Positions 34,960 through 42,249 of a stretch of DNA of 64,000 bases are shown in pieces. The stretch comes from Chlorobiota bacterium (lineage in GTDB: Bacteria > Bacteroidota > Chlorobiia > Chlorobiales > Chlorobiaceae): contig VGGK01000006.1 of NCBI GenBank assembly GCA_016868665.1, positions 1 to 64,000 on the forward strand, written 5' to 3'. How positions within the stretch are numbered: the first letter of the stretch is position 1; the number at the start of each line of letters is the position of its first letter. Below the pieces are notes generated by a model. The model was not told the origin of the DNA, ran no database searches, and saw nothing but the letters and a program-made list of their open reading frames with translations. The translations under genes were made by a program, and so were the position numbers.

Positions 34960-37344
34960 TTATAAGTCATTATTGAATACGTCGGATGATGTGATACGTG
35001 TTTCCTTTATAAGTTCAATACCATCAGGAGAAAAAGCAAAAAGAGTGTCGGCAGAAAAAATCATGCTGAAATCCTGGGGTTTAAAAAACGGAAGAAATTT
35101 CTGACAGTATTCATCGAGCCTCTTGAGATAAAAAGCTGTATTGTCGTCCGGCTTTTCAGAATCCCAATCAGAAGCAAGACGTCCTTTATCGAAAAATGAA
35201 GAAGAATTGCCGGAGCCGCTTATATAATAGGTGATCCTGTCGCCTTTCGAAAACGGATTACCTGATTTCAGTGCAAGTTCATACGTAACAGATTTTGAAC
35301 GTTTTCCATTTCTGACATCTTCGAGATACTGGTCAAGAGATGATTTCAAGGATTCAGTCCTTGAAATCTCTGTAATATCCAATCTGTGATCCTGTATCTT
35401 ACGACGGTATTCCATAAACAGATCATGAATACCGCATATATCTTCAGAAAGTAGTTTCTCGAAACCACGCTTAATGAAATCCCTTCCGAATTTTTCACCG
35501 CTCCTGCTGGTAAGAGATGATCCTTTAATGGTCATAACGTCATCATAACCAAGAAGGGCATAATTTTTCTTCAGGTATGAAATCATTTTTTTAAATCTGC
35601 CGTCATATCCTATCTGAATGCCTTCCGGCATTTGTGACGACACATCGCTGACAAGTTTTCTCTCATCCTCTTCTGAACAGATATGTGGCGGAGGAATAAA
35701 AAGAATACCGTCTGTATCAACTTCAATAACGCGACAATCGCGTGATTCGAACTCGGCAATCATTTTTTTCGCGATACTCTGACCTGTTGAGGTTACCCTG
35801 TCAGCTTCAGAATAATCATTGAATATTCCACCCTGAAAGCCAAGATAACCGTACATGGCGTTGACAAGGATTTTGAAAGAAGATTGCATCGCATCAAAAT
35901 TTCCACAAAGAGCGGGAATGCCATTTTTTTTGTACAATCCGCTGAGTTGTTTTGCCTTGAAACGGAGGTCTTTAAGATCATGAAGCACACCGGGGAAAAC
36001 ACGAAGAGCATCGCTTTTCGGACAAATATCGAATGAAATCATGATAGAAGGATAAAGAGATTCGACATCAGCATAAACAACAGGACCGAGAATGCCTTTG
36101 AGAAATACTTCTGTATATCCTCCCATGAACTGCTGACCAGATGAGGGTTTAGGAATGGAATGTTTCTGACGAAGATATTCGCGAACAAAGAGCGATTCGA
36201 TTTTTGCTGCCGGCCCGAGACGGGATGTCATGCCATACGTGAAAGGAAGCATCTGAGTCGTATAGAAATTGCTGCCGGACAGTAAGCTGGAAAGATCCCG
36301 TGTTTCGATGACATCATCAAGCGCATAGTCAAGAAGTTTTTCATAGTCATTATCCCAGGTGGATGCGATATCATTGTAATCTATATAGGTTCTGTCCTGA
36401 GCGGCGATACCGAAATGTCTTGCAACAGCTTTCAGCCCGTAACTCTGCATGGAACGTCTCGATACGTCATAATTTTGAACCAGAAATAGCGTATCGACGA
36501 CATGACGTCCCGGGATATCGAAATAAGGAAAATCGATCGTTCGTTCTGCAAAACGGATGCTTGACGGATAGCTTCGAGGAAGCATACCATCTCTTCCTAT
36601 GGAGAATGACACTCCATGATGATCACAACGACGCTGCAGATATGGCAGATCGAAACTGAAGATGTTATGACCTTCAATAACATCGGGATTTCTGCTAGTA
36701 ATTGTTTCTACAACCTGCTTCAGCAGCTCTTTTTCGGATCTGGCTTTCGAATGCAGTACCTCTTTCCAACCCATGTTGTCAGAAAGGGACACAATAATGA
36801 TTTCATCGGAAAATCGATCATGTTTATCGTTACTGAGGTTACCAGGCCTGTAATACGTTTCAATATCAAGCTGCAGCCGATGCAGATCTTCGAAGAGCAT
36901 TCCCTTGAACAGGGTTTTGCCTGTCTGAAGAAAATATTGAGATAAACCGTCGCCTTTACTGTATGTAAGAGGGCTGTATCCATCATGATCCGATATGTTT
37001 TTATTCCATGAATCTGAGTCCGATTTCTCATTGATGAAGTCGAGAGCAGCACGATACATTTTCCAGCTGTCGAAAATAGCGAGATACTGATAGAAGTTGG
37101 AGCCGTGAAGTTTCACTAGCCAGAACTTTTTCTGGTTTTCCGGAACAAAGCCGTCAAGAACGGCACCGTCAGAAAGAAAAAAGAAGGGATAAAACGGATC
37201 GTCACGAAATTGCACGGAATCGCCTTCACGAAAAAATAGTCTGATAAGGCTGTCAGAGAGCTGATAGGCGCCAACAATGCGCTCCTCTTTATCTTTACCG
37301 AAAAGAAGCGTGTTATCGATGATGTCATGAATTAGGTTGTCCAT
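34960..37344 (-). CDS. family B DNA polymerase with 3'-5' exonuclease (PolII/archaeal-type)
   Basis: A 794-residue family B polymerase. The exonuclease motifs are intact: LDIET (Exo I, near residue 160), [12 protein letters not shown] (Exo II) and [12 protein letters not shown] (Exo III). The polymerase motifs are also intact: [10 protein letters not shown] (motif A, near 423), [13 protein letters not shown] (motif B, near 495), VDTDG (motif C, near 543), and a downstream [12 protein letters not shown] few E. coli Pol II-like proteins and many archaeal replicases share this layout. I use the ATG at 37344; the frame is open to a TTG six bases upstream. It lies 55 bases after mnmG with a parS palindrome in the gap. 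A repair or translesion role is more likely than bulk replication, by inference. Confidence 0.92.
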
Positions 37345-37380
37345 GAACAAAATAAGATGAAAATGAAATAATGATTGCGA

Positions 37381-39720: not shown

Positions 39721-40158
39721 ATGAAAAGAAGAGCGTTTATCGAACGGAGCGCCGCGATTGCGTTGCTCGCCTTCTTGCGGCCTGCAGATCTGATGGCGAC
39801 ATGGAACGGCAGGAATTTTCAGCAGGTTCCCCTTGAAAAGGCTTTAATTGATGTACTCGGCACGAAAGATCTGGTGCGGACAGGAAGAATCACCGTTACA
39901 GCTCCTGCTGCGGCTTCAGATGCAACTTCGGTGCCTGTTGAAATTAATTCCGATATAAAAGGTGATGCGATATATCTTTTTGTGGAAAAGAATGTAACTC
40001 CTCTTGTTTTCAGTTGTTCGCTGCATGAAGGAGCTCTTGCTTATTTCTCTCTGAATGTGAAAATGAAAGAAAGTTCACTGCTTTATGCAGTGGTAAGGGA
40101 AAACGGCAAATACTATATGGCATCGGCACAGGTCAATGTATCGGCTGAAGCCTGCTGA
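39721..40158 (+). CDS. soxY: SoxY-like sulfur-carrier protein with a C-terminal cysteine
   Basis: A 145-residue periplasmic protein resembling SoxY, the subunit of SoxYZ that carries sulfur intermediates on a cysteine of a flexible C-terminal arm. A twin-arginine-type signal is visible (KRRAFIERSAAIALLAFL, residues 2-19). The body has the VPVEINSD...VTPLVFSC...LHEGALAYFSLNVKM pattern of the SoxY immunoglobulin-like domain. The usual GGCGG tail is absent: the protein ends VNVSAEAC, so Cys145 is the very last residue; a second cysteine is at 99. It is followed by soxZ after 33 bases. Family assignment is good; whether the tail works like canonical SoxY is open. Confidence 0.85.
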   Translation: MKRRAFIERSAAIALLAFLRPADLMATWNGRNFQQVPLEKALIDVLGTKDLVRTGRITVTAPAAASDATSVPVEINSDIKGDAIYLFVEKNVTPLVFSCSLHEGALAYFSLNVKMKESSLLYAVVRENGKYYMASAQVNVSAEAC

Positions 40159-40191: not shown

Positions 40192-40488
40192 ATGAGAGTT
40201 CTCGCAACGGAGAGTGCCGGAGTCGTTTCGGTAAAAGTTATCATTCCTCACCCGAACGAGTCCGGTACGCGTAAGGATGATTCGGGTAACGTTGTTCCTG
40301 CCCATTTCGTAAAAGAAGGAAGTGTTATGCTCAATGGGCGGCCGCTGCTTGATCTGCAGCTTGGTCCGTCTGTTTCCAAAGATCCATTTATTCAGTTCAG
40401 ATTTGCGGGGAAAAAGGGAGATAAACTCGCTCTCCGCTTTATAGACAGCAGCAATCAGGAGTTCTCGTCGGAAGTCTCCGTTGTCTGA
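40192..40488 (+). CDS. soxZ: SoxZ sulfur-carrier partner protein
   Basis: A 98-residue protein matching SoxZ, which pairs with SoxY. The conserved VKVIIPHPNESGTRKDDSG and PAHFVKEGSVMLNG segments are clear, and the ending SSNQEFSSEVSV is the usual C-terminal strand. There is no signal peptide, as in known SoxZ, which is exported to the periplasm bound to SoxY. It lies between soxY and fccA. No soxX, soxA or soxB gene is in the window. Confidence 0.92.
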   Translation: MRVLATESAGVVSVKVIIPHPNESGTRKDDSGNVVPAHFVKEGSVMLNGRPLLDLQLGPSVSKDPFIQFRFAGKKGDKLALRFIDSSNQEFSSEVSVV

Positions 40489-40569: not shown

Positions 40570-40941
40570 ATGCAGGTAACCATCAGATCGTTGCTGACCG
40601 CCTGTCTTGTATTTTCGGTCCTGCTCATTGCGGGAACTGATGCCTCTGCTGCGGCAAAAAAGGTTCAGAAGAAAAAAACGGCAGAAGTCTGTGTCGTTGA
40701 TCCCAGAGGAGAGATTCTGGCGTTATCGTGCGCCTCGTGTCATGGTACGGATGGAAAAAGCGTCGGTATCATCCCGTCTTTTTACGGTAAATCGCCTGAG
40801 TACCTTGAAGCTGCCCTTAAGGATTTCAAATCGGGAACCCGCTATTCAACTGTAATGATCCGGCATGCGAAGGGGTATACCGATGAGGAGATCAGGCTTA
40901 TAGCAGAATATTTCGGAACAGTATGGCAGAACAACAAATAA
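40570..40941 (+). CDS. fccA: flavocytochrome c sulfide dehydrogenase, monoheme cytochrome subunit
   Basis: A 123-residue periplasmic c-type cytochrome. A Sec signal peptide occupies residues 1-25 ([20 protein letters not shown]). The single heme site is CASCHG near residue 55, with a candidate distal Met in [15 protein letters not shown]. Monoheme FccA is the green sulfur bacterial type (the Chromatium one is diheme). The start ATG at 40570 has AAGGAG about ten bases upstream; the open frame begins earlier without a signal peptide. fccB follows 15 bases later, so it would take electrons from the flavoprotein subunit. Confidence 0.9.
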
Positions 40942-40956
40942 CGGGGGAACAGGAAA

Positions 40957-42249
40957 ATGAATCATAACATTTCGCGCAGGGACTTCAATAAACTGCTTGT
41001 TTCCGGCGTTGCCGGTTCTGCTCTGGGAATTTTCGGCATGGCAAAGCCTGCATTCGCTGCACAGACCCGTATTGTGGTTATTGGTGGCGGATTCGGAGGT
41101 GCGTCGGCAGCCAAATATCTGAGAAAGCTCGATCCCTCTCTTTCCGTTACGCTTATCGAGCCTAAAGCCACGTTCTACACCTGCCCTTTCAGCAACTGGG
41201 TGCTTGGCGGGATGAAGACCATGGAGGATATCGGTCAGACATACGCCCTGCTCAGGAGCAAATACGGCGTCAATGTGATTGCCGATACGGCTACCGGTAT
41301 CGATTCTGTTAAAAGCACAGTTACACTCAAGAGCGGGAAGGTTATCAATTATGACCGTCTGGTAGTATCTCCCGGTATCGATTTCAAATACGGAGCCATA
41401 GAGGGGTACAGCGAAAGCGTTGCGAACTCGTCGATGCCGCATGCCTATGAAGCCGGGCCCCAGACCATTCTTCTTCAGAAGCAGCTGCTTGCCATGAAGG
41501 ACGGTGGCAGGGTGCTTATATGTCCTCCGGGTAATCCTTTCAGATGTCCTCCAGGTCCCTATGAGAGGGCAAGCCTCATAGCGCATTACCTGAAAGAGAA
41601 AAAACCGAAATCCAGGATCCTGATTCTTGACGCAAAAGATAAATTTTCGAAACAGGGACTGTTCAAGAAAGGATGGGACAAGCTCTATCCCGGAATGATC
41701 GAGTGGCGTTCTTCCGCTACTGGCGGCAAGATCACCAAAGTCGATGCCGCTTCTAAAAGCGTTACGACAGATTTCGGTGTCGAAAAAGGCGACGTTATCA
41801 ACTTCATTCCTCCACAGCAGGCAGGAAAAATCGCTTTTGATGCAGGTTTGACCGATGCTTCCGGATGGTGTCCGGTTAATCCGATAACGTTCGAGTCAAC
41901 CATTCATCCGGGTATTCATGTAATCGGCGATGCCGTTATTGCGGGCGCGATGCCTAAATCCGGTTTTGCTGCCAGCAGTCAGGGAAAAGTCGTTGCCGCT
42001 TCGATTATCCGGTTATGCCAGGGTAAGGTTCCCGCGCCGCCTTCGCTTGTCAATACCTGCTACAGCCTTATTGGTCCTGGTTACGGCGTTTCGGTAGCTG
42101 GTGTGTACAAGCTGACCTCTGCCGGTATTGTGGAAATACCCGGGTCCGGCGGTCTTACTCCCATGGACGCTGATGACGATCATCTCAACGAGGAGGCGAT
42201 GTTCGCTCGCGGCTGGTACAATAATATCGTTCAGGACATCTGGGGATAG
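40957..42249 (+). CDS. fccB: flavocytochrome c sulfide dehydrogenase, flavoprotein subunit
   Basis: Periplasmic flavoprotein oxidising sulfide to sulfur or polysulfide and passing electrons to FccA. A Tat signal, SRRDFNKLL, covers residues 1-35. The FAD dinucleotide loop is [16 protein letters not shown] near 40-55, and [13 protein letters not shown] has Cys76, the likely covalent FAD attachment. Redox cysteines that could form the active disulfide are in [11 protein letters not shown] (Cys197) and VNTCYSL (Cys368). 430 residues is typical. The gene ends just before a strong terminator. SoxF of Paracoccus is a homologue, which ties this family to SoxYZ chemistry. Confidence 0.95.

Follow-up and report, generated by a model that had tools for sequence, protein, structure and literature searches.

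We propose that the SoxYZ protein encoded beside flavocytochrome c sulfide dehydrogenase (FccAB) in green sulfur bacteria probably serves as a carrier dedicated to sulfane sulfur coming from FccAB, and not as a partner of SoxAX or SoxB, the transfer itself being a step that we infer. In the window, by which we mean the whole stretch of 64,000 nucleotides analysed here from a Chlorobiota bacterium, the SoxY-like product ends in a bare cysteine in place of the GGCGG arm, an ending that, on sequence comparison, is the rule throughout an orthologous class. Taken together with the FccAB context, this ending suggests a carrier that has been retuned for sulfide. We would go further, tentatively and with somewhat less than even confidence, and distinguish two kinds of SoxYZ: a GGCGG kind that works in the SoxAX-SoxB cycle, and an FccAB-paired kind in which each lineage has altered the end of the arm, frequently to a bare cysteine, and which would provide a periplasmic route from sulfide to carrier independent of thiosulfate oxidation, in a two-cysteine form (Cys99) in the Chlorobiaceae. 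The operon of the window contains the following features.

39721-40158, forward strand: soxY-like gene of the bare-cysteine class, 145 amino acids, with an RR-type (Tat-like) leader MKRRAFIERS, a SoxY domain, the arm SAEAC and the stop codon TGA
40015-40017, forward strand: codon TGT for Cys99, an additional cysteine that, within the class, is confined to the Chlorobiaceae members
40153-40155, forward strand: codon TGC for the last residue, Cys145, the homologue of the cysteine that bears sulfur in GGCGG
40192-40488, forward strand: soxZ (TIGR04490, 94.4 bits, cut-off 76; PF08770), without a leader of its own
40570-40941, forward strand: fccA-like gene for a monohaem cytochrome c (CASCH; PF00034)
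40957-42249, forward strand: fccB, flavoprotein subunit of flavocytochrome c sulfide dehydrogenase (PF21706, 166 bits; PF09242, 97.8 bits)

The spacers within soxY-soxZ-fccA-fccB are short, and the two downstream neighbours are FccAB: the flavoprotein matches the FccB profile and keeps both motif cysteines (one of them in NTCYSL), with both motifs aligned with 5n1t_A and 1fcd_A, and the best PDB matches of the haem-binding FccA-like product include the haem subunits 5n1t_B, 3vrd_A and 1fcd_C of flavocytochrome c sulfide dehydrogenases. The product of the first gene belongs to the SoxY family, where the preliminary description had placed it. It scores 82.7 bits against PF13501 (cut-off 28.4), covering profile positions 3-112 of 112; it has a SoxZ partner; and Cys145, which aligns with the carrier cysteine of solved SoxY chains, is invariant in a 42-sequence alignment. 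The structure predicted from 42 sequences has a mean pLDDT of 82.5, with about 60 at the final residues, and its best PDB matches are all SoxY (2nnc, 4uwq and 2oxg; Foldseek probability 1.00, TM by target ~0.8). The translated reading frame ends in VNVSAEAC followed by TGA, with Cys145 as the last residue, just as first described.

This protein is nonetheless outside the thiosulfate-pathway SoxY family. Its score against TIGR04488 (SoxY_true_GGCGG) is 92 bits, under the equivalog cut-off of 125, and GGCGG is absent from its arm. With the thiosulfate-oxidation proteins (TIGR04488; 2nnc, 2oxg, 4uwq) it shares the fold, the homologous cysteine, the SoxZ partner and the RR-type leader, and it differs from them in having SAEAC and a stop for GGCGG, FccAB as neighbour, the extra Cys99 and no SoxA or SoxB: in the window genome, which is 99.9% complete, SoxA was not found (search controls were positive in genomes G002 and G027) and SoxB gave no match at all. 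Two further families are excluded by score, namely TIGR04487, which has an AACIE arm (27.9 bits, cut-off 172), and TIGR04557, the quinoprotein-associated SoxYZ fusion (45.8 bits, cut-off 140), soxY and soxZ being separate genes here.

A search of 98 Chlorobiales genomes with PF13501 gave matches in 46. All 26 Chlorobiales orthologues of the window protein, itself and those of two Chloroherpeton-like genomes (G086, G087) included, end in a cysteine followed by a stop, mostly as QAC and also as EAC and EGC, a uniformity well outside what chance would give, and the ending can thus no longer be treated, as it had been, as an oddity of one protein. The terminal cysteine is encoded by TGT in 17 and by TGC in nine, and the stop is TGA in 18 and TAA in eight; since two cysteine codons and two stop codons are in use, the conservation lies in where the stop falls and does not come down to a single codon passed on by descent. 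The median dN/dS is 0.18 over 97 pairs of the bare-cysteine genes, a sign of purifying selection, and both the gene and its ending are maintained. These observations bear directly on the notion that a lost base or a premature stop removed GGCGG through sequencing error or gene decay, a notion that has nothing in its favour beyond an odd ending in one assembly. The other two forward frames over the end of soxY (...GQCIG*SLLKSW and ...MYRLKPAEVLES) hold no GGCGG, which bears out the earlier claim that no nearby frameshift would restore it, and together with the shared ending, the variety of its codons and the dN/dS of 0.18 they exclude a sequencing error, a frameshift or a pseudogene; we regard the chance of any such cause as negligible.

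The gene context of the class is as constant as its ending. Every one of the 26 bare-cysteine soxY genes stands directly before soxZ-fccA, and fccB then follows in 25, the remaining contig ending after fccA; wherever flanks are present, the soxYZ-fccAB operon of the Chlorobiaceae sits between gidA and secD. Of the 98 genomes, 53 have FccB, among them every genome with a bare-cysteine SoxY. In our view, the strict confinement of this SoxY to soxY-soxZ-fccA(-fccB), with no case in a genome lacking FccB, favours an FccAB-dedicated carrier. The GGCGG kind, by comparison, shares its cluster with SoxA and SoxB and is preceded there by an FccB homologue, and only one genome, a Pelodictyon luteolum MAG (G027), has both kinds. 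The suggestion that the terminal -AC class would track with fccAB linkage is therefore upheld, and the GGCGG class goes with SoxB instead. The position of that FccB homologue upstream of GGCGG SoxY in canonical clusters speaks against our proposal, in that an FccB-type neighbour alone is compatible with GGCGG. A second point against it comes from 11 further Chlorobiales FccB loci that keep the order gidA-fccAB-secD and are missing soxYZ, which implies either a loss of soxYZ at these loci or its gain elsewhere, and which would make SoxYZ at most an accessory to FccAB in those organisms. Orphan soxYZ genes also occur: in G012 (L083:8032-8829) and G007 (L084:9737-10534), SoxY ends in GGCG with no fccAB beside it, the two genomes have no SoxB or SoxA, and the orphan pair adjoins genes that by eye are cyclase-like and succinate dehydrogenase-like.

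The bare-cysteine protein could in principle be an ordinary thiosulfate-pathway SoxY to which SoxAX and SoxB are supplied from elsewhere in the genome, given that it belongs to the SoxY family and has an intact SoxZ partner, and that one Chloroherpeton-like member of the class (L052:5866-6306), which has no GGCGG, passes the TIGR04488 cut-off narrowly, at 127.6 against 125 bits, so that automated annotation would name it a thiosulfate carrier. Yet SoxB exceeds its cut-off in 18 genomes, of which 17 carry a full GGCGG SoxY and the last (G018) only a truncated piece of SoxY, its contig being 3.7 kb long, and it does so in none of the 25 genomes whose only SoxY is of the bare-cysteine kind; the window SoxY itself falls short of TIGR04488 at 92 bits against 125. 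For the window genome the absence of SoxA and SoxB, at its level of completeness, excludes this arrangement, and for the class as a whole we consider it very improbable. In G082, where the sole SoxY is of the bare-cysteine kind, we observed a SoxB-like fragment of 188 residues (G082:C7:50078-50587; 261.7 bits, below the cut-off), which may be a remnant, the effect of a contig edge or contamination.

Similar operons are found in another phylum. SoxY was present in 42 of 100 Gallionellaceae genomes, and a Gallionella MAG (L003) has soxY (ending in GGC and a stop), soxZ, fccA and fccB, plus a second soxYZ ending in GGCGG. Among the fccAB-linked SoxY of this family, 16 of 17 end in GGC and a stop, the exception being GGCSA (L142), and those not linked to fccAB end in GGCGG, with one GGCGN. 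The order soxY-soxZ-fccA-fccB and the cysteine as last residue are as in the window class; unlike the window protein, the Gallionellaceae SoxY keep the glycines before the cysteine and have no Cys99, and their stop often overlaps the start of soxZ. Such an overlap could in part account for the bare ending in Gallionellaceae, but it does not explain the ending in Chlorobiales, nearly all of which have a spacer before soxZ. In part of the Gallionellaceae, a gene for a NapC/NirT-like multihaem cytochrome and a second haem gene stand between soxZ and fccA (L131:3073-4777, L137:3047-4754, L122:8438-10149 and L123:3014-4609), the second interposed haem protein resembling, by eye, the ethylbenzene dehydrogenase gamma type.

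In the wider Pseudomonadota, SoxY was found in 128 of 399 genomes. Where fccAB lies upstream of soxYZ the arms read GGCAG, GGCSG, GGCVG and similar, and where the order is fccB-soxYZ they read AACTEE.. or AACVIG, in proteins that fall in or close to TIGR04487 and whose genes adjoin a SoxA-like gene. The TIGR04487 proteins resemble the window SoxY in being SoxY-related, in having an altered arm and in occurring beside fccB, and they differ from it in that residues continue past AAC and a SoxA-like gene adjoins. In 12 loci (L203-L207 and L209-L215), an AAC-armed TIGR04487 SoxY gene comes right after fccB and before the SoxA-like gene, and this neighbourhood suggests a function for the TIGR04487 family.

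We compared arm and context across 159 distinct SoxY, counting fccB within 4.6 kb and soxA/B/C within 3 kb, limits that were set after the loci had been seen; as the Pseudomonadota sampling deliberately sought out loci with fccB linkage, the proportions should not be read as estimates for the population. GGCGG occurs in none of the 64 SoxY that have fccB and no soxA/B/C within these distances (25 bare-cysteine Chlorobiales, 15 ending in GGC and a stop, and 24 GGCxx), and among the 88 with soxA/B/C nearby there are 76 GGCGG and 12 AAC-armed proteins. Fisher's test gives p 1e-30, a value in which related sequences are counted many times. On the tree the independent contrasts number four and agree in direction (sign test, p 0.125), and that the tie between arm and context comes down to these four must be counted against our proposal. 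The preliminary description had read the ending as a sign of altered carrier chemistry or of a partner enzyme with another pocket, consistent with FccAB as neighbour; of this, the association of the class with FccAB stands, and the reading as a whole finds partial support.

In a SoxY tree built without the arm columns, the bare-cysteine SoxY of Chlorobiales form one clade (SH-aLRT 100) and those of Gallionellaceae lie apart; an AU test did not reject a single clade of all bare-cysteine SoxY (p 0.53). In the FccB tree the Chlorobiales and Gallionellaceae groups are not specially close, and nothing in it points to an operon that the two shared recently. Several FccB homologues (SoxJ/SoxF) upstream of soxXY (L049-L057) fall inside the Chlorobiales FccB clade, a placement that suggests a duplication of fccB.

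It is conceivable, if on balance unlikely, that all of this reflects nothing but relaxed constraint: once SoxAX and SoxB were lost as partners the glycines would have drifted, without any fit to FccAB, and the carrier would serve small molecules such as polysulfide. The endings do differ by lineage within the FccB context (QAC, GGC, GGCAG, AACTEE), as drift would have it. Drift would not, on the other hand, keep an ending fixed over deep divergence, as in all of the Chlorobiales orthologues and 16 of the 17 Gallionellaceae proteins, nor does the low dN/dS agree with it; endings fixed lineage by lineage would seem to call for some positive fit. We therefore prefer the FccAB-dedicated carrier, in favour of which we count the conservation of the ending within lineages (QAC, EAC or EGC and a stop from Chlorobium to the Chloroherpeton-like genomes, GGC and a stop in Gallionellaceae), together with the low dN/dS, the invariance of Cys145, the retention of both FccB motif cysteines and the absence of SoxA and SoxB.

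The second cysteine, which the preliminary description had singled out, is real and conserved. The Cys99 column holds cysteine in 24 of the 26 class members, that is, in all 24 from Chlorobiaceae, and Thr and Val in the two Chloroherpeton-like members, from which it follows that Cys99 is not indispensable throughout the class; of the 133 other SoxY, 122 have Phe or Tyr at this position. In the structure model the residue falls within a predicted strand (95-100). This two-cysteine pattern of the Chlorobiaceae would suit a redox or stress protein, in which a Cys145-Cys99 disulfide acts as a switch, or which protects FccAB, with no delivery of sulfur. We hold this to be improbable, as the operon and the ending occur without Cys99 in the Chloroherpeton-like branch, and the invariance of the carrier cysteine fits a sulfur carrier.

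For the FccAB-dedicated carrier we posit the following sequence of events. FccB would oxidise sulfide at its flavin and cysteine pair, the electrons would pass out by way of the FccA haem, and SoxY would receive the sulfane sulfur as a persulfide on Cys145 at the tip of its arm, where this cysteine would sit next to the chain's own carboxylate. The GGCGG glycines would not have been kept because the carrier never enters SoxAX or SoxB. In Chlorobiaceae, Cys99 might act as a second or resolving cysteine that aids the unloading of sulfur, although this is speculative. Carriers of the DsrC/TusE type are like the window SoxY in having a sulfur-carrying cysteine near the extreme C-terminus of a mobile arm, with a second cysteine in many members; their fold is unrelated to that of SoxY and they are cytoplasmic.

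Part of this picture is already known, namely the soxYZ-fccAB cluster and the existence of non-GGCGG arms such as that of TIGR04487. According to PMC10158934, which cites Gregersen et al. 2011, green sulfur bacteria conserve this cluster, although it is absent from some Prosthecochloris and lost in coral-associated ones, and its SoxYZ are ~30% identical to those of the sox cluster; it is the same gene cluster as in the window, and the passages on it in PMC10158934 mention neither the arm ending nor the second cysteine. Variants of the SoxY swinging arm are treated in PMC11237559, where FccAB is mentioned once, not as a SoxY neighbour, and where sequences without GGC were removed, a filter by which the bare-cysteine class of Chlorobiales would have been excluded. 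SoxYZ bearing sulfane sulfur has been argued to be a working form of the carrier (PMC5336275), and mutants lacking FccAB often show little effect (PMC8232776). A link between arm ending and FccAB was not found in the searchable literature, outside which most subscription papers lie; nor did that literature yield any mention of the ending as a trait of the whole class, of how it tracks with FccAB or of Cys99.

How FccAB hands on the sulfur that it takes from sulfide, and why its loss in mutants often has little effect, has long been a question in the study of green and purple sulfur bacteria. A direct and testable answer is offered by a class of carriers that goes with fccAB and keeps away from SoxAX and SoxB. 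A simple sequence rule, based on the residues that follow the cysteine, would also correct automated calls of thiosulfate oxidation made from soxYZ alone. Finally, we note upstream in the window, on the reverse strand (34960-37350), a 796-residue open reading frame that by eye resembles a family B DNA polymerase, a type of enzyme uncommon in bacteria at large.
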